DNA of 64,000 nucleotides from Hyaloraphidium curvatum. Taxonomy: Eukaryota > Monoblepharomycota > Hyaloraphidiomycetes > Hyaloraphidiales > Hyaloraphidiaceae. The notes below the pieces were generated by a model, which searched no databases, had not been told where the DNA came from, and worked only from the letters and a program-made list of their open reading frames with translations. The position numbers were made by a program, and so were the translations under genes. Location: contig JAIVFI010000019.1 in NCBI GenBank assembly GCA_025558095.1, positions 186,001-250,000 on the forward strand. Direction: 5' to 3'. Positions 4,831 through 45,014 of this stretch are shown piece by piece (positions within the stretch are counted from its first letter, which is position 1; every line of letters starts with the position of its first letter).

Positions 4831-5389
4831 AGATCAATCATGAGGCAATGAAGAAGACTGCCAAGAGGTGAAGTACCCGTCGCGGAGTTCCAGCTCAACA
4901 GTTGCTTTCGCGGCGTCGAGCCGGGGAAAGCCCGCGACGAGAGGTCCGTCCGATGCCTTTCCGGGCCGGGCGGTCGTCGCGGCACTCCGTTTGGCGATGC
5001 CTCCACCTGCGATGCGACGCAGGCGGGGTAGATCGCGGGCGCCGCGACGGTACCCAGCGGGTGGCGAGTGACAGCTGGTGCTTTTGGTGCACGTCGGTTT
5101 CGCCGGCGCCCGCGAGAGCATGCCAACCAATTGCCAACACATTCGGCAGCAATGAGCGGCCCCGCCCCCGCGGGCTCCGAGTCAGTCTCCTCTGCGCTGA
5201 TGTCCCGCAATCTGCCGCGATCGCCGGATGACACCTCCCGTGTTCCCGATCGCGTGTGCTTCGCCGTCCCGGCCGCGCCGTCCCATGCGGCCTCGCTTCC
5301 TCGCATCCGCTTCAGACTGGCATTTTCTGCCAGATCAAATCCATGCCCGCGGCGCTGGGGCTAGCCATGCCTGGATGGGGCCACCACGA

Positions 5390-19744: not shown

Positions 19745-22700
19745 ATGCCTTTCGATTCGAGGAACCCGGATCTGCGATGGGAGGGCCACCGGGCCGGCCG
19801 TTTCGGCAACCTCATTAACCGAACGACTTTCCAAACGGGACTCGAGCAACAGGCAGTGGTCTACGTCATCGAATGTCTTCTCAAGTGCGTTTCCATCGCC
19901 CGGGACCGCGCGGTGCCCCACATGGCGTTCAAGGGAGCCTACGAGGCGGACCGTATCCTGGCGCACCCCGACGTGGACATGATGAGATACGATGACCAAC
20001 TCGGCATCCTCCGGCCGACGGGTAAGTTATCTGAATGCAGCTCAATGTCTCAGACCTCGCTGACGACGCCTCATTCGCAGATTTTAGCCCGCTCACCGGC
20101 GACGTCGAGTACGCGGACAATTACATCGCCACTTCGGAGTTCCACATGTTCGGTGACCATTACCTCGCTTCGTGGGATCGCGACGGCCAACTTTTGTCGG
20201 GACATTGTGAGAGCCGCTTCGGTCTTGGCTTCGGGTCGCTTTCTGATGACCGTTCACGCGTCAGTTCGCGACCCGCTCGAGATCCCTCCCCACTTGTGGG
20301 AGATGATGCGTATAACGGATAACGATCAGGACTTCGAAAAAGCACTGAGGGTCGAATGGCCCGGGCGGCCATGTAGGTTTCGGGTGCATTTCACGGCTGA
20401 CAACAGTTGACATTGCGTCCAGGGGTCTCGGAGGGCACCAAGCCGCCATCGCCTTTCGAGACGTCGTATCGAGCTTTCCGGGATCGGTTCATTGTCCCGG
20501 CAATGCACGAGGATTACGGTCAGGGTCTTGGATTTCCTCTTGCTTTCGACATGCTGACATCTTCCTCCCGACAGAGTGGCCCGACGGAGATCGTGCACCG
20601 CAATTCGACGTCCACGCGGCAGAAGTAGACCCCTCGCCGGCACACCTTCGCTGCATTCCATACCTGATGGGTCACGAGATTGTGAAAGACATCAGTGGAG
20701 AACTGGAGACCAGTGAGTCCATGCATCATGCGTCTTGCACTCTTCCTCAGACTGACTCCTCCTGTAGGCTCTCGAGCACTTTTCACAGAAAACTTCATCG
20801 ACTACTTGGATCGGTTCTTCAGGGCGCTCGTGGACGCCTGTCCGCACACGCAGAACCTCCACCCGGATGACCGCAAGCGTCTTCGTAAGCACTTCATTCT
20901 CGACTGCGTCTTGTTGTCTGACGGGCTCCGCGTCTCTCTCGCAGTCAAGCGTATGCGGCTCCTGGTGTCGCCACGCGTGGTCAAGAGCCGCATGCTCTTC
21001 TTCATGATGCTGTTCTCGTCGGCGTTCCTGTTCGAGGGGATCCACTTCCCGTCCGACGTCGCGCCCTACGTCAACGCCCGGCGCGCAATTGCAGGCATGA
21101 TTTTGTGGGTGCTTTAGCGTGCGTCGATGACTACGATCGTCCCTGATTTCGCTCCATCAGACGTGCTCGGCGATGGCTTCAGACCATCGCCGATTCCATT
21201 CGCGATCTCGCGCCTTGGGATCCAGAAGTTGCTCCGACGGAGGAGAACCTGTCGTCGCGCGTTCATGCTGGTTTCTGGGGATACGTTTTCGAGAATGACA
21301 GGCTCGCCGCGTCGCGCGCGCGTGGCTTCGTGCGGTGAGCTCCGTCGTGGTCATCTCTTATCCACTTTCTCAATCCTTGCAGGCTCATGTCCTTCGCCGT
21401 GCCTCCGCCGGTCAAGACGCACCCCAAGGCCAAGGTCGACCCGCCATTGAAACTCTACTCGTCGCATTGGAACTTCACCGTCGGTGAGCTATGATGTGCG
21501 ACAGGCCGACTGGATCTGTCTCTCACGCCCGTTCCTCATCAGATTCTATCAACATCTCGGGGAATACGGCGGCTCGAATCCTGGCCTTTCTCCGTCTTGC
21601 CGTGAGCTTCCTTCTGCCGATGTCGGCGGCAGTCTTACATTGTCATGTCATGTCACAGGACATCCCTTTTCTTCCACCTGGCTGGCAGCAGCCGGACCTG
21701 CCACCTTTCATACATCGAACCAAAGCTCGTACTCTAACCGGTGGCTTTTTCATCACCGCCAATGGCGCGCCTGCCAAAGGCGACCAACTGGCGCGCATGC
21801 AACTTCGTACCCAGGCCGAGCTCTTTCAACTCGAGCGCAACAAGGCGCTCGTCATGAACAAGCCAGCTTTTGCCGACCGCCCCCAGATCTTCTCCAAGCC
21901 TATCACCATGTACATCAACAAGGGCAACGAGTGGCGTGATGGTATGTCGTTCGTGAGGTTCGGTAGCAGTTGTGGGCGATGACGACGATGCGGCAGGAAA
22001 AGCGAGTGAAGGCCCGATCCCCGTCAACAACTATTTCGTCAACACGAACGCCACCGATTCGTTCCACTCGTATCTGCTCAACACCCGCGGCCTCTTGAAG
22101 TCCGACCCTTTCAAGAAGCGTGAGTTCCACGGCATCGCCGCTGCAGGCTCATCTAACGCAACCCAGGACGACACACGACTTGGCAAGAGCTGAACGGCCC
22201 GCGGTTTCGTCGTCCGCCGCGGCACTACACGCCGCCGGACCCGGCGCTTGTTGACGGGCAGTTTAACGACCTTACTCTGCAGCCCGTCACGCCACATGAG
22301 CAGTGGTACCAGCCAGGGCAGACCAGTCTTGGGGCCGATCTTGGTGAGAGCTTGGACGCCGCTGCACCGCCGCAGACCGCTGGCTGATGGTGCTCGATTC
22401 CCAGGATTTGCATTCGGCATTGTCCTCGTCAACCTCGACCTCGTCCTGGACCCGCCGGACCCCGTCGGCTTCTACGATGTCGCCGGTCGGGCAAACGTGA
22501 AGGAGACGCAGCGGGAGAATGTGCGGAAGCTTCGCGGCCGGACGATTCAGTGGGTCTTCGTTGACCTTCTGCGCGGACATCTGAACTGATTACTTTGTAC
22601 AGGAAAGTCCAAGGCGGGCAACGTTTCAATGCCCTCATGCGACGCTACAAGACCGACGAGATCAAGGGCAAGTAGCGCACCGCCGTGGTCGGTCTCTCTT

Positions 22701-24078
22701 TTTCCTCACGCACTCCAACAGATGCCGAGGACTTCCTCGAGGGACAAGTCGTCGAGTTTGAGCACGGCGCATCGCTGGAGTCCATGGGCTACTATCTCGC
22801 CAAGCGCCACTTTGTCTCGCCCACGTGAGTCGCCTATCGCTCACGCAGTCGGAGCGTTGACTTTGTTTCGGCAGCCTTCGCGAATTCTACATGTCCCGGC
22901 GCCACCGCGCTATGGTCTTTGAGCGTCGCACTACAAGACAGGCCACCAATTACGACCTGCAGCACCACCTGCTCAAGACCGGGGTTTGTCACCTCTCTTC
23001 CCCGCGCCACTGCGACTGAAGTCTACTTCCCGCCTTCCAACAGATGCCATTTACCCTCCGCCGGCCTCGGCCGGGCAACGCGCGCGAGGAGGCGCAGGGG
23101 TACCGCTACTTACCTTTTGCCTGGCCGTTTGCGCGCCGCCAGGCGCCCAACGGCAAGCGGCACCACACTGCCAACCGCAAGACCAAACGAAAGGACCGGA
23201 AGAAGTGGAACGACCCGTCGATCGTCGACAGCCGGTTCCGCGCCCCCGAGTTTCAGCGCCCGCGCGGCTTTCCGAAGCCGGTCCGCATCGCCGTCGGCAA
23301 GAAGGGCACGAATCCGGTTAAGTGCTACCCGCCCATCGGCGTGCGGGTGAGTTGGAAGCTCGGTCATACTCTGCAGCTTCTGAGCGTCGCACCGACAGGC
23401 AATCCTTCGCACGGCCATGTTCGAGGGTGTGCACCTCGATGGCATGCCCGAGACCGGGACCAGCGGCACGTGCATGCCGGCCGTCGTTGCGGACGGAGGC
23501 ACCGGGCACAAGATGAAGTACGGCAAGGTTACGATCACCATTCATGACTCGGATCACCAGTGAGTGATTGCCAGACGCTTCCGCCGACTCTTGCGCTGAG
23601 CATCTGGCGGCGTGGCCAGGACGAGACGCCGGAACGACGGCACCAAGCACCATAGCAAGCGGTTCTGTGTCACGGAAAGGGTCCCTGTCACGCAGTGCAC
23701 GACTCGTGACGAGAAGGGTGAGCTACGGCGCTCTCGACCTTCTTTGGCTCCGTCCTGACGCCCTGCTTTCCCCTTTCCCCCCCTCTAGATGTCAGCACGT
23801 GGCGGCTCTTGGTCTGCGGGGCGGCACAGGCCCAGCAGCACGACCACGGCGGTCACCAGCACCTGATCCTTCCCCGAGCCCGAGGGAGGGACGAGACTGT
23901 CTACAACCGCGACGTGCCCTCCGCGGGACTCATGATCTACAACAACCTCTACGCCACCGAGAACCGCGGCGCCCGCCCGCCGTACAACCGGAACAAGTGG
24001 TATCGCGGCCCCGTGCCGCAGCGGATCTGGGAGGGCCACCCGCCCGACCAGGAGCTCGACGCCGCGGGGATCGGGTGA
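19745..24078 (+). CDS. large multi-intron protein of unknown function
   Basis: The ATG at 19745 (MPFDSRNPDLRWEGH) starts an exon ending at a GTAAGT donor at about 20023. The next exon begins DFSPLTGDVEYADNY. Coding segments with consistent composition then alternate with about 50-60-nt introns for over 4 kb. Examples are NFIDYLDRFFRALVDACPH at about 20800, GFWGYVFENDRLAASRARG at 21270, PFLPPGWQQPDLPPFIHR at 21670, YFVNTNATDSFHSYLLNT at 22030, YYLAKRHFVSPT at 22790, KKWNDPSIVDSRFRAPE at 23200 and AGLMIYNNLYATENRGARP at 23920. I recognise no family. The protein should exceed 900 residues, is rich in aromatic and basic residues, and has no clear membrane helices except perhaps MLFFMMLFSSAFLF. 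The end at 24078 is uncertain: the stop overlaps a GTGAGT donor, and a further exon to about 24333 is possible. Confidence 0.6.
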
Positions 24079-24112
24079 GTCGCTCGATCCCCCGGCGTCG
24101 GGCCGGGGGCGT

Positions 24113-24192
24113 CGATACCCTATTACCCGCGATACCCCTCGGACTCTCCTCTATACCACCGTCTCCTCGATACCGTTGGTCGCCCGATACCC
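24113..24192 (+). repeat. cluster of CGATACCC words
   Basis: CGATACCC occurs at 24113-24120, 24130-24137 and 24185-24192, with CGATACCG at 24168-24175. This is an unusual density for an 8-mer in 80 bases. It lies either just after the stop of the large unknown gene or inside its last intron. Confidence 0.6.
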
Positions 24193-24333
24193 TCCTCTCC
24201 TTATTGATAGAGTAGACGGCTCTCGGGAGCCGGTGCTAACCCGTGGATCGGCTGACCATAGCGATCTGCGGGCGGGGCACCATCATCTAGTTCACGCGCG
24301 AGATACAGACGGCGCCGCATACAACGGCGTGTG

Positions 24334-25128
24334 ATCAACTTGTCATCGCATGAAGTGTAGCAATACAGTAGTTGGATCCACTTGCTAACCCGAGCCCGAC
24401 GAGGGTTCGCTCGGTCCACTCGCGCCGGGATAGACGCGGATGTGCAGGAGCGGACGGAGTGAGACGTGCGGGCACTTGTGTGCGGCACGTCGGAGCAGTA
24501 GACTTGGCCGCGCCAGATCGGCGCGCCTCAACTTCGTTCCCCACCCACCCTCCCCAGCTAGCTAGCGCAACCAAAGCCGTCGAGGCAGGCGAGCCTGCCG
24601 CCTTGGCGCACCGGGCGTTCTCGCCCCTGAGCCCAACCGCGCTGGCCAGCCAGGAGAGAGGCTGAGAGGACGCGAGTGGAGCGGGGAGACACTCGGGATT
24701 CCTGAGGAATGTTCCATCGCCGCGATGCACAACCATGACCTCGTCTGATTGGTCCTTTCCGCCGGCATCGTTTGACGAGGTCCAAAGACATGTCGGGCTT
24801 GCCTGGGATTCGGAGTTTTGGAGCGTCCCGGATTTCCCCGAGTCGGTCATGCCGCGGACGCGCGACAAGTCGCCCTCTAGCTCTCCTTGGTTCGGATCCT
24901 CCGATAGACGAGCGTCATCTCCGGCAACTGTGGAGCAGCCAAGATGCATGACTTGCGGGATCCGCAGCCTATCGATTTGGACGGTTGACTCACGTTCCAG
25001 CCTTCCAGAGCCTCGAACGAGTTCTGTGACGTCGCTCTGACTCCCGCCTCCCAAGCAATTCACATCGAATAGCATTCAACCACAAACCAGCATCGCACGT
25101 AACCACAGCAACGAGCACACACCCCGCG
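24334..25128. other. intergenic, no gene recognised
   Basis: About 800 bases without a supported gene. Overlapping minus-strand frames at 24335-25075 have no motif and look like composition artefacts. The promoter of the next gene lies at the right end; the sequence just before its ATG is CA-rich (AACCACAGCAACGAGCACACA), a common fungal 5' UTR style. Confidence 0.45.
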
Positions 25129-29950: not shown

Positions 29951-30616
29951 CTAGCTCCCGAGCCCCCACTTGCGCTCCAGCGCGCGGTAGATGACGGTGT
30001 AGTCCAGCTTCCTCATCTCCTCGTCCTTGGCCGCCTCCTTGTTGGTCTCGTACACGAGCTCCGTCAGGGGCGCCTCGATCCCGACCTCCTTTGCCGCCTC
30101 GACCGCCAGCGAGAGGTCCTTGACGCCGCCGCCGAGCGGGAACCCGGGCATCGCGTAGCCGCGGGAGCTCGGCACGCCTTCCAGCACGCCCGGCGCCGGG
30201 TTGTAGCTGCGCGAGATGTACGTGGCGCCCGTCGACGCGTTGACGATCGAGGTCAGGAGACCCGGGTGGATGCCGTGCGCGCGGCCGACGAGCAGGGTTT
30301 CCGAGAGCGCCATGAGAGCCGAGTACTCGTTCGCGTTGTTCAGCAGCTTGGCTGTCTGCGCGGTGCCGCCGGCCTGGCCGACGAGGTAGACCGTTTCGCC
30401 CATCGTGAGCAGCCAGGGGCGGAGGGCGTCCAGCAGGGGCGTCGATTCGTCCACCGACGCCGGCGGCGATTCGCAGTCGTCCGTGCCGACCATGAAGGTC
30501 AGCGTGCCAGCCGCGGCGCCCGAGATGCCGCCCGACATGGGGCAGTCGACAAAGGTGCCGCCGGCCGCCCCGATCGCGTCCCGCGCCCACCGCGCAACAT
30601 TTCCGCGCGGGGAAGC
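29951..30616 (-). pseudogene. 3-hydroxyisobutyrate-dehydrogenase-like, C-terminal half
   Basis: This frame encodes the second half of a beta-hydroxyacid dehydrogenase: FVDCPMSGGISGAAAGTLTF (substrate-binding block), then TAKLLNNANEYSALMALSE with the catalytic Lys region, then the helical C-terminal domain ending ERKWGLGS. The NAD-binding Rossmann half is absent directly upstream. Recognisable sequence starts near SPRGNVARWARDAIG (about 30616). The missing half is found in the same orientation at 34946-35354. The two halves together would give a normal length enzyme of about 330 residues that oxidises 3-hydroxyisobutyrate or a related 3-hydroxy acid. Unless a 4.3-kb interval is spliced out, the gene is disrupted. 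Confidence 0.75.
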
Positions 30617-30689
30617 CCGAACGGCGAACCCAATCCCGCCCAAGACAGCCATACAGAGGCAAAGTCCGACCAGAGGAAGCTGTCAGGGA

Positions 30690-31330
30690 TGATTTCGAAC
30701 CACATTGACGACCCTGTTGCCCTCGGCAATCAATCCCCCCTCAGTTCGGTCACGGGACGGTTCTCGCGACGCCGCAGCAGGAATTGAGGACCCAAAAGCG
30801 CGATCCGCCCCTCCGGTGTCAATTCGTGCAGCTTCAGGACCCGGGGCAGTTCCTCCGACGAGACTGCGTCCGGACGGCCGTGTGCTGTACGGCCATGCGG
30901 GAGCTGACGGTTCTCCGACCAACTCGTCCATGAACCAGCCGAGAACCGCGCGCGCCGTTTCCGAGTGCGGTCCGAACCCCGCGGCGCGGAGCAGCACGCG
31001 AGGCGGCTTGCGGGCGACTCGGGGCGCGAGTCGGGCGAGAGCGACCTCGCGGGGTGCGGCCCGCGGAGCAGCCGTGCACGTGAGCCTGCGTCCACCACCC
31101 CTGGAGCAGCGGCACTGTGGTCCACTTGTCCTCGAACGACGCCGACTGCAGCTTCATGACGATGTCGCACAGGACGGGCTTCGGCAGGCCGGTTGCGAGC
31201 AGGAAGTCGGAGGCGTCCTCGCGCCGCGGCCAGCCGAGCAATCCTGCCGAAGCGAAGTCCGTAAGGCGCACCCCAAAGGGTCCCGAAGCTTCGCCGCGCA
31301 CTGCAGCGGATCCGCGATTCAGTTCAGAAT
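30690..31330 (-). other. unassigned minus-strand coding-like segments
   Basis: Several short frames look protein-like but do not chain cleanly: GVRLTDFASAGLLGWPRRED and KWTTVPLLQGWWTQ at 31110-31290, then SETARAVLGWFMDELVG near 30920-30980, then VLKLHELTPEGRIALLG and RRRENRPVTELRGD ending near 30733. They may be exons of a small gene or the remains of one. No family was recognised. The interval lies inside the segment that separates the HIBADH halves. Confidence 0.3.
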
Positions 31331-31420
31331 CATGTCCGCGTGCAAGAGAAGCCGAGGATTCGGAAAAGAACAGGGTTGTTGCGGTGCGAAAATGTCATCA
31401 CGGGTGCACGCGTCCCACAC

Positions 31421-34400
31421 ATGTCACCACAGGATCCACCCGATCCCCGGACGCGCGCGGCCATGCCGCCGTCGATCCCTGACCCTGCGGAAGAGCCTGC
31501 GCAGGAGCGTCGTCCCGCCCCGCCGCCCGCGGACGATCGCGCCGCGGCGGCTGCCGGGCGCGGCGGCGGCGGCGCGGGGCCCGCCCAGCCAGCGCGCCGA
31601 CGGCGCATGCTCATCCCCCTGCCCGAGCGCAATGGTGGCGGCCACGCGCGCGTCATCGGCGAGGCTGCGACCGGCACCGGTGCGGCGACCCCCGACCCCT
31701 CGCCGGACCACGCGCGCGACGACCGCGACGCGCGCAGCTTCCTCGAGCCGAAGCCGCCGTCACTCCGGATCCGTCTTCGCAAGACCGCCACCGGCTACGA
31801 GCACGTGCGGCGCGAGGCCGGCGGAGTGGGACCGGCGCGGCTTCGCACCCCGCGCCTCCAGGAGCCCCCGATCGACGCCGGCTCGTACCCCTCCCCCGCG
31901 CCGCGCAGGCGCTGGGCGGAGGAAGACGGCGACTACCTCGACGAGCACGACTCCCCGCCGGCGCGGAAGCGGCGCCGGACCGTGCGCGCCCCGGCCCCCG
32001 ACCCCGACCCCGGCCCCGCCCCCACCCCCGCTCCCCGTGCCCGCGGCCGCCGGGTGAAGAAGCAGAAGGAGCCGCAACTCCTGCGCTACCTCCGGAAGGC
32101 GGGCAAGAGCGCAGCGGCGGAGAGGCCTGCAGCCGGGGTCGCGGAGGAGGGCGAGGTGGGTCCTCGACGATGCTCGGCCGCCCGCCACCTCTAACGCATC
32201 GTTCAGCACTCCCATTCCGATGCGACCGCAGGCGCTGATGGCGGGGCTACCGGCGGTGTGTGGACGTTGTTGACTCCGAGCGCGTCGCTGATCAGGCACT
32301 CCGATCAGGCACCGAACCCCCGGTCGACGACGACCTCCGCCGCACCGCCGAGCTCCTCCAGGAGTTTGTGCGCCGCGGCGCGGTCTTCGACGCCATCCGC
32401 TCCGGCCTGCCCAATGGCCGCGGCCCCGCTGTCGCCGAGCTACTCGAGGCTGGCGAGCTGGCTCCCCTCCCGGCCGCAACCCCCGAACACCTTGCGAATC
32501 TCAAGGACCTCGAGGACGCATGGACCCGGAAGGCGGCCGAGCGTGGGCCCCCGGGCAAATGGTCGCTCGGGAACGAGCGCGGGGACGTCTCCAAGCTGGC
32601 GACGGCGGACTGGGGCAAGCTCTGTCACTCCTCGCGGACTTTCCCGTCAACGCCGAGGAGCAGTTTGGCGCGGGATCGCGCGGGGTGAAGTACCCTCGAG
32701 AGCCAAACGGACTCCCATACGACGTGTGCCTCACCGGCTTCCAATACCAGAAGATCGCGCCTGCCATCGGCTTCGGGGCCATGTGCCTCGACGGCAAGCC
32801 GATCGTCGCCGACGCGAAGGACAAGAACGGCCCCTTCGACATCACCAACGCGCATGACCTCGAGCTTCTAGATCTCGTCCTCAGGTTCGGGCTTGCGGCC
32901 GGCGCGACGAAGATGTTGGCCTTGTCGGCCATCATGCGCGAGGGCGTCGTCTTTGCGCTGCGCAAGGGGTTCGGCGGCCGCTACGAGGGGGAGACCGAGG
33001 TTTCGGCTGGCGGCGTTCGCTTGCCGCTCCACCTGTTCACGGACCTCAGCGTCGAAGGGCGCAGGGACATCGCGCTTGGGGTCGCCGGCACTCCCCACCT
33101 CCAGCTCCTCATCAATCCGGGGGTCTCGCTCGTGGTCTCGCTGGGACTCTGTGCGGTTGTGAGCGTGACGGGCCGGGGCATGTCGCTCGAGGGGATCATG
33201 GGCGTGCTCTCGGCCGGCTGCGGTCTGTCTCACGAGCAGCTCGTCGAGTTCCTCCGGCTGCTGAAGGACAGGGCGACGCCGAGGGCCTTGGACGCGCTGG
33301 GGAAGGAGATGGCGACGGACCCTGGCATGGACGTCCGGGAACAAATCCACTTTTTGTTCTCGCACGCGGGGGGGGTGATGCTGGGCGAGCTCAAGGACAT
33401 CGTGCGGTCCTTCGTCCCCAAGCCCGTGCGCCGGCAGCTATACGACGACGCGTACGAGACCATCGCCGAGAAGCTCACCCCGGGGGCCCGCGGCAAGGAG
33501 GCGCTCAAGCAGCTGGAGGGCTTGGGGGAGGACGGCGCGGCGCTCGCAGCAAAGCGGATCAGGGAGAGCGGCGCGGGGCCCGCGCTCTTCGCGTGCTTGA
33601 GCGACTTCGAAGGCGGCGATCGGATCGGGGAGCTGGCGCGCAAGGTCGTCGAGATCCTTGGCCAGGAGGCAGTCGACAGCCTGGTCGAGCCGATCCGCGA
33701 GTCGACCAAGGACATCGTCGGCACTGACGATGCCTCGGTCAACCTGCGGAAGGACACGGTGCAACGGGTGGTGCGCGAGCGCCTCGGCGCCGAGAAGGCC
33801 GCCGCGATCGCGGGGCTGGAGGGCGGCCTTCTCCACCCGTTTGGGTTTGGGAAGGCGGCCGCCCTCGAGGCCGGCGAGATCCTGGGACCAGGCCGCCTCT
33901 TTGATCTGCGGATGCACATCAAGACCGTGCTGGAGGAGGACGACGTGAACGAGGCCGAGCCCCGCGACCGGCACGAGGTTGTGTTGGACGAGGCGTCGAA
34001 GCTGTTTGGCCCGGATGTGGCGAACAAGCTGCGGGGCCTCGAAGGGGGAGTGCTGCGGCACGTCGTCGTGGACCGACAGCCGTCAGTCGCCAAGAAGGAG
34101 TGCCCGGTGTGCCAGAAGAAAGTGAGGTTTCTCAAGATGACTTCCGCGTTCACTGATTGGCCGTCTCCCTCTAGGTGACAAACCTCCCGAACCACCTCAA
34201 GTCGCACTCGGACGAGAAGCCCTTCTGCTGCGAACGCTGTGGCACTCGGGTGTGTCTGGTCATCGGAGGTACTGTGTTTCGCTGCTCACACGCTCCCAGT
34301 TCAAGCGCCAAGGGGACATGAAGAAGCATGTCGCTGACGTGAGGTGCAAGCCGCGCAACACCCTGCAGAAGGCCCCGCCGAAGCGGTTGTTCGCCTGCAC

Positions 34401-34638
34401 CAGCTGTGACAAGACGTTCACCAGGCACTACAACCTCGTGAGGCACCAGATGGTGCACACGGGGGTCAAGCCCTACAATTGTGAGCTCTGTTCATCCTCC
34501 TTTGCCCTCAAAAAGGATCTCCAGAGACACCGAGCCAAGCACTCGATGGGGATTAACGCGACAAGGGAGGAGCCGGGGGAGACGAACGAGAACGGGGAGG
34601 ATTCGCAGACGGATGAGTGTTCGCTTGAGGGATTGTAG
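31421..34638 (+). CDS. C2H2 zinc-finger protein with large N-terminal region
   Basis: The ATG at 31421 (MSPQDPPDPRTRAAMPP) starts a Pro/Arg-rich region with NLS-like clusters (ARKRRRTVRAP, RGRRVKKQK). Introns chain in phase. A GTGGGT donor near 32155 leads to GATCAG at about 32299, possibly with a tiny exon ALMAGLPA between. A GTGGGC intron at about 32545-32597 leads to GDGGLGQALSLLADF. A large predicted-helical region follows (LTGFQYQKIAPAIGFGAM, VREQIHFLFSHAGGVML). Introns near 34123-34174 and 34253-34300 join the fingers: CPVCQKK/VTNLPNHLKSH, FCCERCGT/RFKRQGDMKKH, FACTSCDKTF...RHQMVH with a TGVKPYNC linker, then CELCSSSFALKKDLQRHRAKH. It is probably a DNA-binding regulator. It sits inside the interval splitting the HIBADH gene and appears intact. 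Confidence 0.75.
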
Positions 34639-34650
34639 AGTGGCGCTCCG

Positions 34651-34786
34651 ACTACACGCACAGCTGATCGACGTGGAGCTCCTTACCGTGGCCGAGGCCC
34701 AGACCCGGGCCCACCAGGCCCTGGCGAGCATGTTCCTGACCCTGGGGCTGCTGGCCCTCGCCCGAGTCACGCCGTCCAGCGGCTGA
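34651..34786 (+). other. possible bacterial outer-membrane efflux protein tail
   Basis: In this frame the sequence reads VELLTVAEAQTRAHQAL and then a hydrophobic tail to a stop at 34784. The words resemble the C-terminal helix of NodT/OprM-type outer-membrane efflux proteins (pattern LLTVLDAQ). The match is short and weak. It was noticed mainly because a better bacterial match lies on the other strand in the same stretch. Confidence 0.25.
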
Positions 34787-34941
34787 ACCAGGTCTGCACC
34801 CGGTCCAGGTACAGGTAGATGACCGGGGTGATGAACAGGGTGATGAGCTGGGAGAACAGCAGGCCGCCGACCACGGCGACGCCCAGGGACTGGCGGGAAT
34901 TGGAGACGGTGCCGATGCCGATGGCCTGACGGTTCTTCAGG
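34767..34941 (-). pseudogene. bacterial-like RND efflux pump, C-terminal fragment
   Basis: The minus strand encodes about 58 residues reading RQAIGIGTVSNSRQSLGVA, VVGGLLFSQLITLFITPV and IYLYLDRVQTWFSRW, then a stop. This matches the final transmembrane region and C-terminus of AcrB/MdtB/MdtC-type resistance-nodulation-division transporters (pattern RQPLGIAVVGGLLFSQLLTL..TPVVYLYLDR). Such pumps are typical of Gram-negative bacteria, and this segment is an isolated tail with no rest of the gene. It abuts the truncated HIBADH N-terminal half. It may be captured bacterial DNA, a horizontal-transfer remnant, or an assembly/library artefact. Confidence 0.7.
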
Positions 34942-34945
34942 CGGG

Positions 34946-35354
34946 CCCGACGGTGCCGAGCTCCACGAAGACGGGGCCGCGGCCGGTGCCGCCGATCGCG
35001 GCCGCGAAGCGCGAGTAGACCTCGCGCGACTCCGCGGGGCCCGGCAGCGCCGTGAATGCCAGGTCCGCCGCGCGCGCGAGGTCCTCGGCGGAAGCCGCGG
35101 CCGACACCCGCGCGCCCAGCGGCGACACGCGCGGCGACGCGAGAAACGCGTCCACCGCCGGCCGATGCGCGTCCAGCACGAGCAGGTTGACCTCAGAGGG
35201 GAGCTTGGACGCGAGGTTGGCCGCCATCCGCCCGCCCACTGTTCGGGGGAACTGCCGGTCAGGGGACGCCGCGGGGACGAAACAGCGGTCGGCACGCACT
35301 GGATCCGAGCCCCACAAAGCCCACGGTCCGCACGTTGTCGAGAGGTCCGGGCAT
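34946..35354 (-). pseudogene. 3-hydroxyisobutyrate-dehydrogenase-like, N-terminal half
   Basis: The start at 35354 gives MPGPLDNVRTVGFVGLGS. A 61-nt intron (GTGCGT donor, CCTGAC branch, CGAACAG acceptor) completes the Rossmann fingerprint as GLGSMGGRMAANL. The domain continues through the second strand (VNLLVLDAHRP) to FVELGTVGP, which corresponds to the DCSTI-P motif. It then runs into a stop at the junction with the bacterial-like fragment. Everything after this motif is found 4.3 kb away at 29951-30616. The break lies within a beta-hydroxyacid dehydrogenase at the end of its NAD-binding domain core. Confidence 0.75.
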
Positions 35355-35521
35355 CTTGGTTGTCGGAGGAGGTTCGGAAGTCGGAAGTGCGGCACGTTGG
35401 ATCAAGCCCTGTCGGGGCTGAACCCGATCAAGGACAACCCGGACGCCGAAACAACGGCCGGGACAAGACGTCCAACAGTGTTCATTCATTCACGACACAC
35501 TACACACGGCACACCGTGCCA

Positions 35522-37849
35522 TCACTGCTTCCGGGCGACGTGGTGCACGTTGGCCTGGCACGACGGCAGGATCGTGCAGTCCCCGATCTGCACGTGCTCC
35601 GGCCGCGAGGCGGCAAAGACGACGAACTCGGCTGCAGGGATGATCAGCGCCTGCGCCTCTTCGGGGGCCCGATGGATCGACCCACCGACGTCCTTTGGCC
35701 GCAGCGGCGTGAAGCCCTGGTACCACTTGTCCTTGGCCGCCTCGTCCCCGAACCGCACGGCGATAAAGTCGCTGTCCGTCATCCCCGGCGAGATTTCCGT
35801 GACCCTGATCCCCGTGTCGAGCAGCTCCAGCGTGAGCGACTTGTTCAGGGCGTCGGCAAAGAACTTGGTCCCGCAGTAGATCCCGCCGCCCTTGTAGACG
35901 TCCTGGCCAGAGATGGAACCGATGTTGACGATGTGGCCCGCGTTCTTGGCGCGCATCCCGGGGATCACCGCCTGCGCGCACCACAGCATGCCCTTGACGT
36001 TGGTGTCGATCATGGCGTCCACCAGGTCCTCGGGGATGCTCTCGACCGGGTCGACGCCGACGGCGAGGCCGGCGTTGTTGACGAGCACGTCGACGGGGGA
36101 GAAGGGGGAGGGGAGGGAGGAGACGGCCGCGTCGACGGCGGCCTTGTTCCGGACGTCCAGCTCGACGGCGTGCACCTTGAGCCCGGGGTGCGCCGACTCG
36201 AGCTCCTTTCTGAGCGCTTCCAGCTTCTCCAGCCGGCGCGCGCACAGGATGAGGTTCGACCCCTTGGCCGCAAACTCTGTGCCGGCGGATCAGCGGCGTC
36301 GTGCGCCGAATGACGGGGGCACCCACCCTTCGCGCACGCCTCGCCGATCCCCGCGCTCGCTCCCGTGATCAAGACGTTCTTGCCCTTCAGGTCGAACGAA
36401 TCCTTCCTCCCCCGGGGATCCGCCGCCGCCGCCTTGCCCGCCTCCTTGGCCTTTGCCTCCCCGTTCGCCTTCCCCTTGCGCCCCGCCCCGTCCCACATCT
36501 CCCGCGGCACCACCCGCCTCCCGACCTCGGTCATCCCACTCTTCTCCACCGCGGGGTCGATGACGACCTTGATGCAGTCCACGGGGTCGCTCACGAGCTC
36601 CAGCGCCGCGACGTAGTTCTCCAGCGAGTAGGCGTGGGTCACGAGGTGGTCCATGGCGCCGGATTCGACGATATCGAAGGCGCGGTCCCAGCAGCCGTAG
36701 CCGAGGTTGGTGCCGATCACGGTGAGCTCCTTGCCGGCGCTTTTGAGGGGTGCGGGGTCAGCGGGATTGAGACGGGGGCCTGGCAGGAAGCCCACGAGAT
36801 GATGTTCCAGTCCGCGCTGCACTCGGGGTGCTTGCAGATCCCGACGTGGACAAAGGTGCCGCACTTGCGCACGAGCGACAGGCCCTGCGGGATCGACGCC
36901 GGGTTGCCGGTGCACTCAAAGTACACGTCCGGCCCGCCGCGGCCGTCGGTCACGACGTTGGCGACGATGTCGGCAAGGACGTCCTGCGTCGAGAGGCGGG
37001 AGAGGTCGTAGACGTGGTGGGCGCCCATCTTTTTCGCGACCTCGAGCTTGAAGCCCGACGGGTCGACGACGATCTGTGGGATGACAACACGAAAAGCTGC
37101 GGGATCAGCGCTCATCGCCTTCCCGAGTCCGCCGCGACCCACGATGGTGATGGAAGGCAGGTACATCCTGATCGCCGCCACGACGCCCAGCCCGATCGGC
37201 CCCGCCCCGGCAATCAGCACCGTCATCCCGTCCTCCAGCTTTGCCCTGTCCATGGCGTGCACCGACACGGCCACGGGCTCCACCAGCACCCCCCTGTACG
37301 GCGGCATCCCGTCCGGGCACTTGTACACGTACGAGCCCTTGCGGTAGACCATGAAATCCGCGCACGCGCCGTCCAGCGCCTGCCCGTAGATCCTGAGCTT
37401 GTCGCACTTGTTGGGCAGCTCGTGCCTGCAGAACCAGCATTCGTGGCACGCGTAGATCTGTTCGCACACCACGGGGTCGCCGATCTTCAGGCCGAATGCC
37501 TCGGCGGCGCCCTCGCCGAGGGCCGCGACGTCGCCGACGAACTCGTGGCCGGGGATCACTGGCGGCTTTGCCCGTCCTGTCTTGGGGTCTGGGAGACGGA
37601 ACGGGTTCATTCGCCGCCCCTGTCGACCGGCGGCCCGAGCCCGCCGCCATTGGACGGCCACGCACCCCAGTAGAACGGCCCGCCGAGGTACATCTTGACG
37701 TCGGACGCGCAGATGCCGACGGCGGTGACCCTGACGAGCACCTCCATCGGGCCGGGCTGCGGGACGGGCACCCGCTCGACCTTGTAGTCGAGCGCCGCGC
37801 GGGCGACGACCGCGCGCATCGTGGCGTCGGCAGGCGGGTCGGAGGGCAT
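35522..37849 (-). CDS. fused zinc alcohol dehydrogenase (MDR) and short-chain dehydrogenase
   Basis: The start at 37849 (MPSDPPADATMRAVV) begins an MDR domain: VGICASDVKMYLGGPFYWG with a catalytic-zinc Cys, then after a GTGCGT intron VIPGHEFVGD. The four-Cys structural zinc site is CHECWFCRHELPNKC, followed by GAGPIGLG for NAD. Introns near 37078-37170 and 36725-36780 rejoin IRM/IVVDPSGFK and WNIIS/AGKELTVIG. After DPVDCIKVVIDPAVE the frame runs without a stop through a Lys/Ala linker into an SDR domain: GKNVLITGASAGIGEACAK, a GTGGGT intron near 36275-36325, LDVRN, LVNNAGLAVG and catalytic YCGTK, to a stop at 35522. The whole is about 690-700 residues. Both domains keep their catalytic residues. 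It could couple two redox steps on a polyol, but the substrate is unknown. Confidence 0.85.
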
Positions 37850-37982
37850 ACTGGGCGGGGAGCGGGGCGGAGTGTGGGGTGCCGGCCGCGTGGGACGCGG
37901 CCGCTGTTTATGCGCGCGGCGATCGCGAGGGTCCACGCTCCGCCCTCGCCATTGGCACCGCGCCTATTCGCCCCATTCCAGG
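37850..37982. promoter_or_regulatory. compact bidirectional promoter
   Basis: Only 133 bases separate the divergent starts of the MDR-SDR fusion (37849, minus) and the Dabb gene (37983, plus). The interval contains CCATTGG at about 37950, an inverted CCAAT-type box. Co-regulation of the two genes is plausible but inferred. Confidence 0.5.
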
Positions 37983-38625
37983 ATGACGGTCATTCATACC
38001 GGTACCTTCTCTCCGCGGCCCCGGCGTCGTGCCGCGAACCCTGACGGCTCCGCCGCGAAAGTCTTCTTGCGGGTCAAGCCCGACTCGACCCCGGAGGCCG
38101 TTGCCGCTTTCCAGGCCGGCCTGAAGGGCATGGTCGGCAAGGTACCTTCACTCTGCGCGTCGAAGATGGATTTTTGAACGGTCCGCGGTGCAGGTGCCCG
38201 GTATCACGCGGCTAGAGGTCGGCCCGACCTTTACAACGTCGCAGGCAGCGGGTTTTACGCACAGTGGGTTCCTCTTTCTCGCGTTTCGGCTCGTTCTGAC
38301 CTCGATTCAGTGATAGGTCAGCCCTCGTCCCGCGATGCCCTCCCCCGGCCGCCCCGGACACCCTTGACGGGCCGAACCCCACTCCAGTGATCGAGTTCGC
38401 CTCCAAAGAAGATTTGGAAGCTTTCCGCCCGCATCCTGACCGTGGGTTTGCCGCTCCACCTTGCGTTTTCCGGGTTGCTGACGTCTCCGGGGCCGGAAGA
38501 CGTGCACGTGCGGGACAATCTCATCGGACCGGTGGCCGCCGGTGGGTTTTGTCGTCGGCGGACGGGGGCCGCAGCTCATCTGCATTGCGGTGGCAGAGAA
38601 GGTGGTTCTGGACATCGAGGTCTGA
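37983..38625 (+). CDS. stress-responsive Dabb (dimeric A/B barrel) protein
   Basis: The ATG at 37983 gives MTVIHTGTFSPRPRRR, then VFLRVKPDSTPEAVAAFQAG, the first strand and helix of the domain. Small introns join the rest. GTACCT...GTGCAG joins GMVGK to VPGITRLEVGPTF. Another precedes VIEFASKEDLEAFRPHPD. A GTGGGT intron then gives HVHVRDNLIGPVAA, and a last GTGGGT intron gives EKVVLDIEV and a stop at 38623-38625. The pattern (PD-TPE, GLxxMVGKVPG, FxSKEDLEA, HPxH) matches the Dabb family, small dimeric barrels linked to stress response and polyketide-type chemistry. The function here is unknown. Confidence 0.78.
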
Positions 38626-38914
38626 GGGTGCAGGGGCAAGCGGCGGAGGGCGCGCGGAGCCGGGCCGACATGGGTGCCGGATCGGCCGTTGCTTCGCACG
38701 GGAGTGGACAGGGCAGGGGACGGTGGCCTATCTGCTGCATGGAAAGACAAAGGAGGGCAGCCAGCGCCCCGTTTACTGAAGGAGTCACAACAAAAATAGT
38801 CGATCTAGCTCTCTCTCACTCTGCTTCGCTCTGGAGTCCTAGTGTCCCTTGTCCGAGTCTGTCCAATCGCTCTCCGTACTCCAACACATCAGCAGTGGAT
38901 CCCGGCCCTGCGCA

Positions 38915-39467
38915 CTAGAATGCCTCGACGAGCATGTTGGCCACGTCGTCCGACACGAGCACCCGCACGTCCTCCCGCTCCGCGGGCATAAAGATGCTCG
39001 ACACGACCGCCTCAATCCCCCTTCCCTCGTCGGACGCATCGAACGCCGCATCGGTGTCCGAGTCGGACTGCGATCCGGCGTCGATGAAGCCCGAGTCGTG
39101 GTGCGACCGCTTGAGCGTCAGCATGACCGCGGCGACCTCCTCCTCCGCGGGCAGCTCGGGCTGCGCATCGGCGGTGGAGGGATCTTCGGGCAGGTACAGG
39201 CCGAAGAGAGAGTCGGCGAGGGCCGAGGGGAGCGCGTCGGGGGGGACTTCGGCGTTGACGGGCGCCGGGGAGGGCGTGGCGAGGGGGACCACCACGATCG
39301 GGGCCAAGGCGGGTGCGGGAACGTCCGCGGGAGGCGCCGGTGCACGGCGACGGCTCAGAGACCGCGGCAGCGAAAATCCGGGCGGTGCCGGCGAAGCGGC
39401 CGGTGCGGCCGTGCGGCCGAACAGCGCGGCGAAGAAGCGCGAAACTGCGGCGCCGAGTGACGGCATG
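38915..39467 (-). CDS. small acidic hypothetical protein
   Basis: The start at 39467 (MPSLGAAVSRFFAALFG) gives about 183 residues. The N-terminus is amphipathic and basic (SLPRSLSRRRAP). A Pro/Ala-rich linker follows, then an acidic C-terminal half with clustered Ser/Asp (SDSDTDAAFDASDE) and a final hydrophobic strand-like segment (RVLVSDDVANMLVEAF). The clean composition and stop make it a plausible gene, but no family was recognised. Upstream in-frame sequence to 39973 looks non-coding. Confidence 0.5.
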
Positions 39468-40150
39468 GCGACGTGGGGAGGCGGCGTAGGCGGCGTGCTG
39501 ATGGTCAAGACAAAGACAAAAGCAGGCGGGCGGTGTCGCTGGGAGGGACTTTGGCGGCATCCATCCGCGCCGCGAACGCACCAGCCGGTCGGCCGGTCGG
39601 GCGGCACAGCCAGTGCCCACGACCAGAAGCGGCAGGGACAGCTCAAAACCGCCCGAACCCCGGCAAGCCCGGCCGGACCATCACTGTCGTCCGTGCCAGA
39701 ACCGTCTCCGCACCGTCCGCCCCCGAAACGCCCACTTGTTTGGCCATCGGCCGCTCCGAGCGGCCGCATTTGCCGCCCAGGCTGGACAACCCAAGGTTCT
39801 CGACCGATCCGCATTATCGTGACATCGTGAGTCGCGCCCCGGGAATGTCTTGCTGGTCGCAACATTGTCCGGACACGAATTTGCAGCGGGGGATACGGGC
39901 CCATGACGGACAACTCGGCGGAGGGCGGTGGCGTCCGGCGGCCATTCACAATTAGTCGGTGAGGGACCCTCAATGCGACTCAGGCTTCAGCGCCACGCAC
40001 TGCTGATGCCCGGTATCGAATCTATGCATACATAGCGAGCACGCTGGCCGCCCACCTCCCGCCCAACTGTGCTTTACGACCTCCACCAATAGGAAGCCCC
40101 CCTTTCCCGGCACAGCCCCGAACCACAGCCAGCCCCTCCAGCTTCGAACT
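39468..40150. other. intergenic, no gene recognised
   Basis: About 680 bases without a supported gene. It includes the 3' flank of the OYE gene and the upstream region of the small acidic protein. Confidence 0.45.
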
Positions 40151-41665
40151 CTAAGCTGCCCGCGCCAAGTAGGCCGCCGCAACCGCCGCTGCACCCAGCA
40201 CGGCCCACCTCGTCGCGTGCCCCCTGGCATCCACCGGCCAAATGACATCCCTGATCCCGGAATCAGCGCGAATCGACCGATCCGCGCGGCGAATCACCCA
40301 CCAGAACGGCCGCGTCAGGGTGCCCGTGGACGGCTCGAACAGCGCCGCGCGGAACATGAACCCGCCGGCGGCCCCCGGCTTCATCGCGGGGTCGGGGTCC
40401 TGGCCGTCCGCCATGCGCTGGATCTGCAGCGTGTGCCTTCGCGGGCGGATGATCGGGTCAGCAAATGGCGGGGGCAAACGGTGCTCGGCACACCAGTAGC
40501 TCTCGAAGCTGCGCTCGGTGCCTTGCACGGCGTTCCAGTCGATCGGGGGCGGCGGGGCTGCGCTGCCCGCGGAGGAGATCAGAAGCTTGGGGAGCTCCGG
40601 GTGGAGGCACAGCGGGCGGGCCAGGCCAATGAGATCGCAGGCGCCCGAGGCGATGGCTTCGTCCATCGCAGCGCGCGTCCTGAACCCGCCCGTGACCATT
40701 AGCGGGATCTTGACCGCCTTCCTTGCCTTTTCGGCAAACTCGAGGAAGTACGCCTCCCGCTTCTTGGTCGACTCGCGGACGTTGATCCCGACCATCGCAG
40801 GGCTCTCGTATGATCCACCCGACACCTCGACGAAGTCCGCCCCTTCTTCCTCGAGCATCTTCAGCACCTCAATGTTGTCCTCCTCAGTAGACCCGCCTCG
40901 CTGAAAATCGGCTGAATTGAGCTTGCAGGACACACAGAATGAGGGGCCGCAGGCGGCGCGGATGCCGCGGACGATCTCGCGGAGGAGGCGCATCCGATTC
41001 TCGAGCGAGCCGCCGTACTGGTCGCTGCGGCCGACGTTGACCTTGGGATTCAGGAACTCGGAGATGAGGTACCCGTGGGCTTAAACTGGGGGTTAGAGCT
41101 CTGCCGTGTGATAGAAGTCATCGTTTACCCCACCGGCGTGGACCTGGATCCCGTCGAATCCGGCCTCCTTGGCCAGCTTTGCCGTCGTCACGAACCTCTC
41201 CTTGACCTCCAGCACCTCCTCGGTAGTCATGGCAACGGGCTTCGCCAGCAGCCATTTCGGAATCTCCGGCGGCATCTCCAGCCCAACGTCGCTGGGCGCT
41301 TTGGGCCTCGGGTTGACCGCCACCGGCGTCTGCCTCCCCGCGTGGCTAATCTGCATCACGGCCCGGCACCCGTCCTCCTTGCAGGCGCGCGCGTAGTCGG
41401 CGTAGAGCTCCAGATTCGCGGCGTCCGCGGCCTCGAGGGCCACGTTTCGCGGCGCCTCCATGTGCCGCCTGTCCACGGGCACGTTGCCCGTGATGAGCAT
41501 CCCGGCGCCGCCGCGGGCCCAGCGCGAGTAGACGCGGAAGACGCGCGCGTTCGGCAGGTTGGTGCGCGCGTCGGCGAGGGACTCGGTCATGGGTGCCTTC
41601 GCGAGGCGGTTCTTGACGGCGAGCCCGCAGGGGAGGACGAACGGCGTGGAGATGTCGTCGGGCAT
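40151..41665 (-). CDS. NADH:flavin oxidoreductase (Old Yellow Enzyme family) with C-terminal membrane tail
   Basis: The start at 41665 gives MPDDISTPFVLPCGLAVKNR. TIM-barrel motifs follow: RLAKAPMTE, then GGAGMLITGNVPVD, QISHAGRQTP, and FDGIQVHA. The only intron seen (GTGGGG...TTTAAG, about 41085-41140) completes HAAHGYLISEFLNPKVN. GRSDQYGGSLENRMRL follows, then VSCKLNSADF, and later LMVTGGFRTR and DLIGLARPL (FMN phosphate-binding). The catalytic barrel is complete. The extra C-terminus of about 100 residues ends in a hydrophobic segment (WAVLGAAAVAAAYLARAA), suggesting a tail anchor, which is unusual for soluble OYEs. It reduces activated alkenes using NAD(P)H; the physiological substrate is unknown. 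Confidence 0.85.
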
Positions 41666-42371
41666 GGCGGCGACGGCTAAGGGAGGTCCCCGAATCGCCA
41701 AGGGAGGTCCAAAAGGGCAATGGAGTCCGGGAAACGCTCGGCAGAAATCGGTCGCGCCGCCGATTTGGTGAACGGCGGGGCGGGAAAAATGCCCGCAAGG
41801 TGGCCGGGCGCAGCAAAGGGCGGTCGCCCATCACCCAACGGCCGTCGCCGCGCATGGGCAATAATCCACCCTTCCTCACGATGGTGCATCACAAGCAGAG
41901 CATGTGCGATCACCTCAGCATTAAACTCTAGCTGCGTGTTCGAATTGATCGACCAAATGGGCAGCCTACAGTACCACCTTTCCATGTGATCGATCGTAGT
42001 ACCGCCTTTCGGAATCGCCTCGGAAAACATCTCGGATGCATCGAATAGGGAATCGCGATTGTAAACAGGGATGACTAAATGCGAGGCACCGATCGGCGGA
42101 GTTTCGGCGACCTCATTCTGGCACTTGCCGCCCGACTCCGAAATATCTCCCGCCAGCGTACTTCTCGACCGACCTTCGTGGCCGAGTAGACTAGTGATGG
42201 GCGCCTCTCCTGGGCGACGCAATTTTGTCTCCCTCCAGAGTATTGATCCCCGTGGCCGTGGGGACGAACAGTTTTCCCGCTCCCCCGCCGCAGCCAATTC
42301 TTGGAAGGTTCCTCGGAATCGTCCTTCGCCGGCGAAACACCGGCCTCCGACTACCTTTCGCGTACATCTAA
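41666..42371. other. divergent promoter region of OYE and patatin genes
   Basis: About 700 bases between divergent starts. Close to the OYE start, AAGGGAGGTCC occurs twice about 25 bases apart (41678-41710). No gene was recognised. Confidence 0.45.
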
Positions 42372-44144
42372 ATGGAGCCATTGTTTGACCCCGCCTATGC
42401 CGCCGGCGAGATGTCGCCCGTGGCGATGTCCGTTGGCTCCTCGTGGCTCGACGAGCTCCGGCGTTGGCCCCCCGAGAAGTTCCGCATCCTGTCGCTCGAC
42501 GGCGGCGGCGTGTGGTCGCTCCTCGAGTTCCACGCGCTGAAGGAGACTTTTGGCGGCCATGCTCGGGGGCACGACGTGCTCAATTCGTTTGACTTGGTGG
42601 TTTGCACTTCGGGCGGGGGACTCGTGGTCGGTGCGCTGTTGTCGGACTGCACACTCGAGCAGGCCATCAGGTTGGAGTTCACCAAGAAGGCCAGGGCAAA
42701 TCTCTTCAAGGAGAGCAAGATTCGGACCGTTGCCGCGGGGATTCCGCGGTGGAGCGCGGACGAGAAGGGAAAGGGGTTTGTCGACCAGTACGACTCGGTT
42801 GCGGCCGCACTTCGGGAAGACGCGGAATTGTTTCGCGAATCCGAGGGCCCGGATTCAGAGTCTGCGAAACGGGCAGAGGAGGCTGCGAAACGGGCAGAGG
42901 AGCTCAGATTCATGGAGATGCGCAGGATCCCGGTCTGGATGCGCCAGTCGCCGCAGTCGCCGCTGCGACGCCACAGGACCCATTTCCTGATCACGGCGTT
43001 TGACTACGTGCGCAAAACAACCGCCTACTTCCGCTCTTATGGCGACGAAAGTGCTCCCTACGGCACCCCTGAGCTTGTCGACGTCACGCTCCCCGAAGCC
43101 ATGCATGCGAGCTCCAACGCCCCGGTCAAGTACTTCGACGGCCCAGCCGTAATCTCTCGCAAGGACAAGAGCGGCAAGGACGACAACGGCAAGGTCAACA
43201 CGTACGAGTTCTGGGATGGAGGGATAGCTGGCCTGAGCAACCCCGCGGAGGCGGCGGTGGTCGAGGCGCTTTCGGCCGGCATCCGGCCCGAGGATATTCA
43301 GTTGCTCAGTCTCGGTACGGGGACAGTGAGGCTGCCGGATCGGAACGACCTGGCTTTTCAGTACAAGAACGCGGATGTGTCCCCAGAGAACAAAGAGTTG
43401 GCGACGCAACAGACCGTTTCAGCGACCAGATCGCATTCGTGGAGCAACTTGGTTTCCAAGCCCCTACATTGGGCCTTGCCTCGGCTCATGGGGCTCCTTG
43501 CTGACGTGGACGTGCTCGCCGAATCCATCATGGATTCGCCGCCCGGGGCGACTCTCATGAACGCCCTCGTCATGATACATCCCCAGGGCCTCGGCATGCT
43601 GGCGCCTACGGACTGCCAGGATCCGGAGCTGCTGGAGGCCGTGCGGTTCGTGAGAATGTCGCCGTTCGTGGCCGAGGTTGCGTACGGAAAGGACAACTTG
43701 CCGGTCGTTGGTTCCAACCGCGTCGCGCCAGAGAACGTGGTAACCATCAAGACCCACGCACCCGACCCGAAGCACGCGCCGGACAACCCGGCGGATGTTG
43801 AGATGAACTGTTCGGGCTTTGAGTTCGTCGCCGGATTGGACATGGACACCGACGGGACCGGCATCGAGTACCTTGAGAAGCTCGCTCATGCCTGGGTCAA
43901 TGGCGGGACAGGGCAAGGCCAGTTTCTCCTGCGAAACCAACACGTAGTCAAGGGCCTCATAGGCGAGAGCTGGTTTGTTTTGGCGAGGGATCATTGGCAT
44001 CTGCTCCATCCCGAAGCGAAGAAGATGTTCGATGCGGCGCCGAAGATCAACATCGCAGGTAAAAGGGGAACGAAGAGGCCGGGGGAATGGACCGAGGGAA
44101 ATGGAGAGGATGGGAGGAAAAAGACCGGGAACCTGGAGCTATGA
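42372..44144 (+). CDS. patatin-like phospholipase
   Basis: A single exon of 590 codons begins at 42372 (MEPLFDPAYAAGEMSPV). The patatin oxyanion loop is at residues 43-48 (DGGGVWS). The nucleophile elbow is at 78-82 as CTSGG, with Ser80, where the first Gly of the usual GxSxG is Cys. The catalytic Asp is in EFWDGGIAGLSNPAEAA, the DG motif of the Ser-Asp dyad. Later segments (LLSLGTGTVRLP) match the family. The C-terminal 200 residues do not match a domain I know. It presumably hydrolyses phospholipids or other acyl lipids. No signal peptide is present. A 21-bp tandem duplication inside the gene encodes a repeated AKRAEEA heptad. Confidence 0.85.
   Translation: MEPLFDPAYAAGEMSPVAMSVGSSWLDELRRWPPEKFRILSLDGGGVWSLLEFHALKETFGGHARGHDVLNSFDLVVCTSGGGLVVGALLSDCTLEQAIRLEFTKKARANLFKESKIRTVAAGIPRWSADEKGKGFVDQYDSVAAALREDAELFRESEGPDSESAKRAEEAAKRAEELRFMEMRRIPVWMRQSPQSPLRRHRTHFLITAFDYVRKTTAYFRSYGDESAPYGTPELVDVTLPEAMHASSNAPVKYFDGPAVISRKDKSGKDDNGKVNTYEFWDGGIAGLSNPAEAAVVEALSAGIRPEDIQLLSLGTGTVRLPDRNDLAFQYKNADVSPENKELATQQTVSATRSHSWSNLVSKPLHWALPRLMGLLADVDVLAESIMDSPPGATLMNALVMIHPQGLGMLAPTDCQDPELLEAVRFVRMSPFVAEVAYGKDNLPVVGSNRVAPENVVTIKTHAPDPKHAPDNPADVEMNCSGFEFVAGLDMDTDGTGIEYLEKLAHAWVNGGTGQGQFLLRNQHVVKGLIGESWFVLARDHWHLLHPEAKKMFDAAPKINIAGKRGTKRPGEWTEGNGEDGRKKTGNLEL
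42861..42902 (+). repeat. 21-bp tandem duplication in the patatin gene
   Basis: TCTGCGAAACGGGCAGAGGAG at 42861-42881 is followed at once by a near-identical unit at 42882-42902 (GCTGCG... start). It encodes two copies of the helical heptad [SA]AKRAEE. The frame is kept. Confidence 0.85.
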
Positions 44145-44424
44145 ATTGTACTTACGTTTCTTGGAGAAGCATCGCCGGCCTCGGGTGTCGTTAGCAGCCT
44201 TGGCGCAGAGCAGAAGGACTTGCCACATCCCGATCCTGTCTCTTGTCTGTAGCACTTCGAGTGCGGGCAAAGCGGTGGACCTAATCTGTAGATATGAAGG
44301 ATCATTGTGTTTAGCCATAGCGAAAGACTGATCGAGGAAGAAGGATCGATCGATTGTCGGATGAATGGAGGCGGGGGCGGGGTGGGGCGACGACAACACA
44401 GAGTCTCCACAACATCAGGCCGCG

Positions 44425-44910
44425 ATGCCCGGCGTGATCCTCTCCGTCCGCTTCACGAGCGGTCTCTCGGATGACGAAGGCGCGCTGCTACCGCTGCCTC
44501 CTCGGATTCGGGCGTTTGACGCGTTCTGGCGCGCAGTCCGAAAGACCATGGCTGCCCGAGCTCCGGAGTTTCGCAGAGTCCCCGGACTGCTTCAGAAGTT
44601 CTGTACGTGTTGTCGCACTCCTTTGCCCTACGCCGCATCACTCGAATTTCGCTTGCGGTCACCGGGAAGACGGAAAGGACGCGAGCGACGCCAATTCGTA
44701 CACCGGGATCTACATCTTCGCGAGCGAGGCCGATTGCGACGCGTACCGGCAGTCCGATCTGGCCAAGTCGATTCCTACGGCGTGCGTATGTTGCCCCGGA
44801 ACGATTCCGATGCTCATTTGCCGACCGACAGCTACAAGGCCGTGGTGACATCGATGCGGCGCGAGGTCTACGAAGTCATCGCGCCGCTCTTTCCGATGGA
44901 AGGTCTATAG
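44425..44910 (+). CDS. YdhR-like dimeric alpha-beta barrel protein
   Basis: The ATG at 44425 gives MPGVILSVRFTSGLSDDE, then VPGLLQKF. An intron of about 65 nt (GTACGT donor, GGGAAG acceptor) creates LLQKFYGKDASDANSYTG and continues GIYIFASEADCDAYRQSD. A second intron (GTGCGT...CGACAG, about 44782-44832) gives TAYKAVVTSMRREVYEVI and a stop at 44908-44910. The spacing of the Y-x-TGIYIF segment and the following helix fits the putative monooxygenase YdhR family, small dimeric ferredoxin-like barrels. The enzymatic role is unproven. Confidence 0.65.
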   Translation: MPGVILSVRFTSGLSDDEGALLPLPPRIRAFDAFWRAVRKTMAARAPEFRRVPGLLQKFCTCCRTPLPYAASLEFRLRSPGRRKGRERRQFVHRDLHLRERGRLRRVPAVRSGQVDSYGVRMLPRNDSDAHLPTDSYKAVVTSMRREVYEVIAPLFPMEGL

Positions 44911-45014
44911 AATCCAATTAGGCAGCTGCCTTGTACATCATGCTCAGAGCAAGGTGGAAGAAGCGTGTGCGAGTCATTTCCAATTGCCGTCCTTTGTTGT
45001 TCGCGTTGGATCCC

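Follow-up and report, generated by a model that had tools for sequence, protein, structure and literature searches.

What has divided the coding sequence of a HIBADH-like enzyme into two halves that lie 4.3 kb apart? The question is raised by the window analysed here, a stretch of 64,000 nucleotides (C19:186001-250000) from a genome of 31.9 Mb in 55 contigs, whose introns and C2H2 zinc fingers identify the host as a eukaryote. An earlier sequence-only reading had left several answers standing: disruption of the enzyme by an insertion or by a complex repair event, an assembly error, or a giant intron hosting a gene. We examined the two halves, the DNA between them and the joins in turn.

The two halves of the HIBADH-like gene

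Both halves are encoded on the minus strand, collinear and complementary to each other. Their parts are the following.

35354-34943, minus strand: N-terminal (Rossmann) half, matching Pfam NAD_binding_2 at positions 11-97
35354-35300, minus strand: exon 1 of the N half
35299-35239, minus strand: intron of the N half
35238 to ~34943, minus strand: exon 2 of the N half
29951-30601, minus strand: C-terminal half, from NVARW to the stop codon, matching Pfam NAD_binding_11 and NAD_binding_2

The N half starts with an ATG at 35354 and carries a 61-bp GT-AG intron (GTGCGT...AACAG), read from the sequence, at the same place where the paralogue on C15 is interrupted. Removing this intron restores the GxGxxG motif (VGFVGLGSMGGRM), which is absent from a single-frame reading. 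The sequence-only reading, which had placed this half at 34946-35354, was right about its presence; it overlooked the intron, and exon 2 extends to ~34943. The C half terminates with the stop codon TAG at 29953-29951 and shows a Pfam NAD_binding_11 match (E 3.5e-17) together with the end of NAD_binding_2 (profile 104-139); its other end is at 30601, not at 30616 as first assigned. The HIBADH hallmark pair, a Rossmann NAD domain and NAD_binding_11, is present but divided between the halves. That the halves are collinear, on one strand and complementary, as had been claimed, is confirmed by their NAD_binding_2 matches (profile 11-97 versus 104-139) and by alignment to solved structures: joined at GTVGP(A)/NVARW, they align to human HIBADH 2i9p (E 6.9e-31) and to 3obb (E 7.6e-31), in both cases across the junction, and the gap at the junction in alignments to solved HIBADH members is one residue at most. 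The best NCBIfam family is HIBADH with 161.6 bits, a score under the equivalog cut-off of 291.6, so that the match does not fix the exact substrate.

The C15 paralogue (65% identical) is contiguous across the break point. Neither half contains a stop or a visible frameshift. Simulated neutral change of 3-5% left no stop in 56-39% of runs (P about 0.4-0.6), so that stop-free halves are unremarkable at this age; they would also fit continued use. The enzyme could still be made if the intervening DNA were a 4.3-kb intron hosting a nested gene and were spliced out. The open frames of both halves and the preserved 61-bp intron would agree with such splicing, but the C15 paralogue has no intron at this place, the sole donor-like GT at the edge is the weak GTCGGG, and no AG acceptor adjoins AATGTT, the edge of the C half. 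Since AG is missing beside AATGTT, splicing out a GT-AG intron cannot produce the join that the protein requires, and we regard the giant intron, raised earlier as an exotic option, as hardly credible. As judged from the sequence, the gene was probably inactivated by the insert, and the C15 paralogue remains.

Composition and divergence of the insert

DNA searches against the same genome resolved the insert of ~4.34 kb into a mosaic of adjacent pieces. They derive from at least five scattered genomic loci (C6, C3, C11, C30 and C39) and a bacterial-like stretch, as listed below.

30597-30916, plus strand: piece 1, C6-like, 81% to C6:62192-62503 (plus), ~10 small indels
30916-30995, minus strand: piece 2, part of an F-box-like ORF, 80 bp, 96% to C3:163092-163171
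30994-31077, minus strand: piece 3, part of an ORF, 84 bp, 92% to C11:24572-24655
31076-31240, minus strand: piece 4, part of an F-box ORF, 95% to C30:455666-455833 (match spanning 31073-31240)
31241-31380, no strand assigned: piece 5, 140 bp, without a second genomic copy
31381-34656, plus strand: piece 6, zinc-finger gene block, 3.3 kb, 90% to C39:152864-156158
34657-34942, minus strand: piece 7, RND efflux pump end, matching Pfam ACR_tran and NCBIfam MdtC

Piece 5 found no match in the genome even at E 10, and the protein-level search for coding relatives of the C6-like piece returned C6 only, plus two marginal matches. The C11 source sits in an ORF of 357 codons, and the ORFs that contain the C3 and C30 sources show F-box similarity. 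The window holds only 80-170 bp of each of these three sources; as each piece covers just an inner part of a longer ORF at its source, the window is the recipient. A control search of the adjoining 10 kb (35350-45350) yielded three genome matches only, at 72-78% and up to 117 bp, and this nearly match-free region indicates that dense patches are not background everywhere. Diverged segmental copies do occur elsewhere in the window. Positions 19950-24367, at least, copy C20 in two parts at about 90-91% (C20:294849-298411 and C20:298711-299566), and 24377-24683 is a dispersed repeat of ~300 bp with ~20 or more related genomic places at 68-97% identity. As far as the searches reach, the six-piece patch occurs only at the HIBADH break.

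The zinc fingers of piece 6 are detected by Pfam. The C39-like block retains both of its short introns, the first of which is identical in the window and in C39 although the flanking exons differ. A retrocopy (processed insertion) was rejected on account of these introns, which imply that piece 6 came from DNA (or unspliced RNA) and not from a mature transcript. The gene had been described as intact; this does not hold, since a 2-bp insertion near 32626 shifts the zinc-finger frame relative to C39. The C39 copy in turn has an in-frame TAG that ends its ORF 3933-5336 (local coordinates; TAG ~5334-5336), where the window copy is open. On these readings neither copy of the block appears plainly intact.

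The copies in the insert differ by 4-19% from their sources. The C3, C11 and C30 pieces together show 19 differences in 332 bp, of which 11 are synonymous in the source frame and 8 are not. About three quarters of the changes would be expected to be nonsynonymous if all were neutral and had arisen in the copy. The excess of synonymous changes (11/19) over this expectation suggests that both copies probably changed, part of the divergence having arisen in the sources or before copying. With 81% identity the C6 piece lies further from its match than the pieces from the coding donors do (92-96%), so the true donor may have been a sibling of the C6 locus, or the pieces could be of different age. 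Identity to C39 is uneven too, ranging from 79 to 98% per 200 bp, behind which may lie gene conversion or uneven constraint. Such a spread, with piece identities from 81 to 96%, is what stepwise growth would leave, that is, independent insertions at one place over time, possibly with later conversion of the zinc-finger gene. The pieces abut without leftover HIBADH sequence, an arrangement rarely produced by many independent hits, and we consider stepwise growth unlikely.

Joins and the bacterial-like stretch

The joins share little sequence. One base pair fits both sources at the C6/C3 junction, the C3/C11 junction has a 2-bp overlap GC, the C11/C30 junction an exact 2-bp overlap GC, and ACATT (about 5 bp) is common to the HIBADH edge and the C6-like piece. 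The measurable overlaps are thus 1, 2, 2 and ~5 bp, the remaining junctions having a known source on one side only, and microhomologies of 1-2 bp are near chance level in GC-rich DNA. The hexamer GCCCGA had been noted at both borders and offered as a possible target duplication. Its second copy lies at 34945-34950 as described; the first is displaced by one base (30615-30620) and falls inside C6-homologous DNA, outside the HIBADH gene. A target duplication was rejected here, because homology to C6 continues across the first copy and 6-mers are often shared by chance, in one third of random pairs of 40-base stretches from the window.

Searches at the insert found no target duplication, no CTRR-T Helitron end and no inverted repeat (TIR) of 8 bp or more joining the insert ends. 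These results bear on a gene-capturing transposon (Helitron, Pack-MULE-like or other) that would have collected the fragments and then inserted in HIBADH. Capture of gene fragments by Helitrons has been reported from fungi (PMC4289320), but the insert lacks all three of these marks and its scanned ORFs contain no transposase domain, which makes a transposon very improbable. The junctions are instead blunt or microhomologous without target duplication, and the insert copies distant sequence which is still in place at its source, both of which are characteristic of templated insertions.

Next to the N half, the final 286 bp of the insert hold the C-terminal end of an RND efflux pump of bacterial type, in agreement with the bacterial-like fragment that the sequence-only reading had recognised in the intervening DNA. 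The homology spans about 34797-34925 (Pfam ACR_tran, E 9e-9; NCBIfam MdtC, E 1.1e-12). The best DNA matches of the stretch are bacterial (75-85% over about 95-125 bp), and the best protein matches of the fragment reach 62-79%. The genome contains no other ACR_tran match and no second copy of the RND-bearing DNA. An outer-membrane-factor reading of 34640-34786 (plus strand), suggested by eye, was dropped for want of support in Pfam, NCBIfam, plasmids and the bacterial loci examined. The RND stretch is bacterial-like and could possibly be captured DNA, an old transfer, or an artefact of assembly or gap filling.

A comparable stretch is found in the C20 copy mentioned above, where ~299 bp (C20:298411-298710) are present that are absent at window position 23518. 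The fragment encoded by this stretch of ~300 bp resembles bacterial regulators of the FtrA/AraC type (NCBIfam E 1.5e-8; plasmid tblastn with 50% identity, E 6e-8), and the stretch is either a second bacterial-type scrap in the genome or another artefact of equal size. It is conceivable, if doubtful, that the RND stretch is bacterial DNA captured in the same break repair and that, taken with the FtrA-like stretch, it points to a eukaryote that has repeatedly patched its breaks with bacterial scraps from food or the environment; a mechanism of horizontal transfer could then be read off directly.

The same two stretches could be seen as traces of an assembly chimera, in which sequence of this genome (contigs or reads) was wrongly joined within HIBADH to that of a contaminating bacterium: ~290 bp of bacterial type without a second copy lie exactly at one border, a similar stretch of ~300 bp interrupts the C20 copy, and the size resembles single reads. 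The window, however, contains no N, and the other pieces are 4-19% off their only other genomic copies, partly with indels. A chimera of the genome's own reads would be near-identical to its sources, so these pieces are not mis-joined reads of those loci. We therefore hold a chimera of the whole locus to be quite unlikely; of the assembly error proposed earlier, what is left is a possible artefact confined to the bacterial-like ~290 bp.

A probable break repair and its counterparts in other systems

The split of the gene, the mosaic between its halves, the donors (or siblings of the donors) and the junctions are all direct observations on the assembly. The best explanation, to which we assign a probability of roughly 0.7, is that a double-strand break in HIBADH was repaired by a templated multi-donor insertion. 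Since the insert is a mosaic from several sources, repair is favoured among the insertion options, which supports the earlier proposal that an insertion or complex repair event disrupted the enzyme. Rather than rejoining the ends of a double-strand break or broken replication fork within the HIBADH-like gene, repair would have filled the site with ~4.34 kb of patch DNA, and at least five dispersed loci and one bacterial-like stretch would have been copied or captured in succession. The 1-5 bp of shared sequence at the joins could reflect either MMBIR/FoSTeS-like switching between templates or the capture of fragments by end joining, and the 3.3-kb piece would have brought the zinc-finger gene, introns included. 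We infer that this took place as a single event through a repair pathway and cost the gene its function.

Yeast repair mutants, cancer cells and human disease all provide known cases of templated insertions with multiple donors. The kind of event is familiar; a natural case that combines several donors with a bacterial-like scrap is unusual. Natural assembled examples with nameable donors help to gauge how often such repair moves genes and makes chimeras in ordinary genomes. At this locus repair would have broken a metabolic gene and transferred another gene entire, introns included, and bacterial DNA may have been trapped as well; should the bacterial-like piece prove genuine, the locus would tie break repair to horizontal transfer.

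The closest counterparts come from yeast, humans and plants. According to PMC11724301 and work cited there, fragments from across the genome are inserted at breaks in yeast with Dna2, Rad27 or RPA defects, and 5-7% of these insertions are complex, with at least two fragments. The insertions of dna2, rad27 and RPA mutants resemble the insert in their scattered donors, in being multi-fragment in some cases and in the microhomology at their junctions; the insert differs in having six or more pieces over ~4.3 kb in a natural genome. For MMBIR, complex joins with 2-5 bp microhomology have been proposed (PMC2621351), and MMBIR/FoSTeS may share with the insert the serial template switches at short microhomology from which complex joins result. 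It was described for human copy-number variants. Human class 2 TSIPs (templated sequence insertion polymorphisms) are patches from distant genomic regions (PMC5110952), with distant DNA repairing a break as is proposed for the insert; the latter draws on at least five donors, and on a bacterial-like piece as well. In grasses, filler DNA in double-strand break repair moves genes (Wicker et al. 2010, as cited in PMC3445842), and a gene-bearing stretch lands at a non-collinear site as it does here. The grass filler is coupled to transposon insertion, whereas the present insert lies inside coding sequence and has several extra donors. The numins of plants, mosaic mitochondrial-plastid insertions (PMC6215612), also combine several fragments of different origin; the donors are organellar in numins, and nuclear and bacterial-like in the insert described here.
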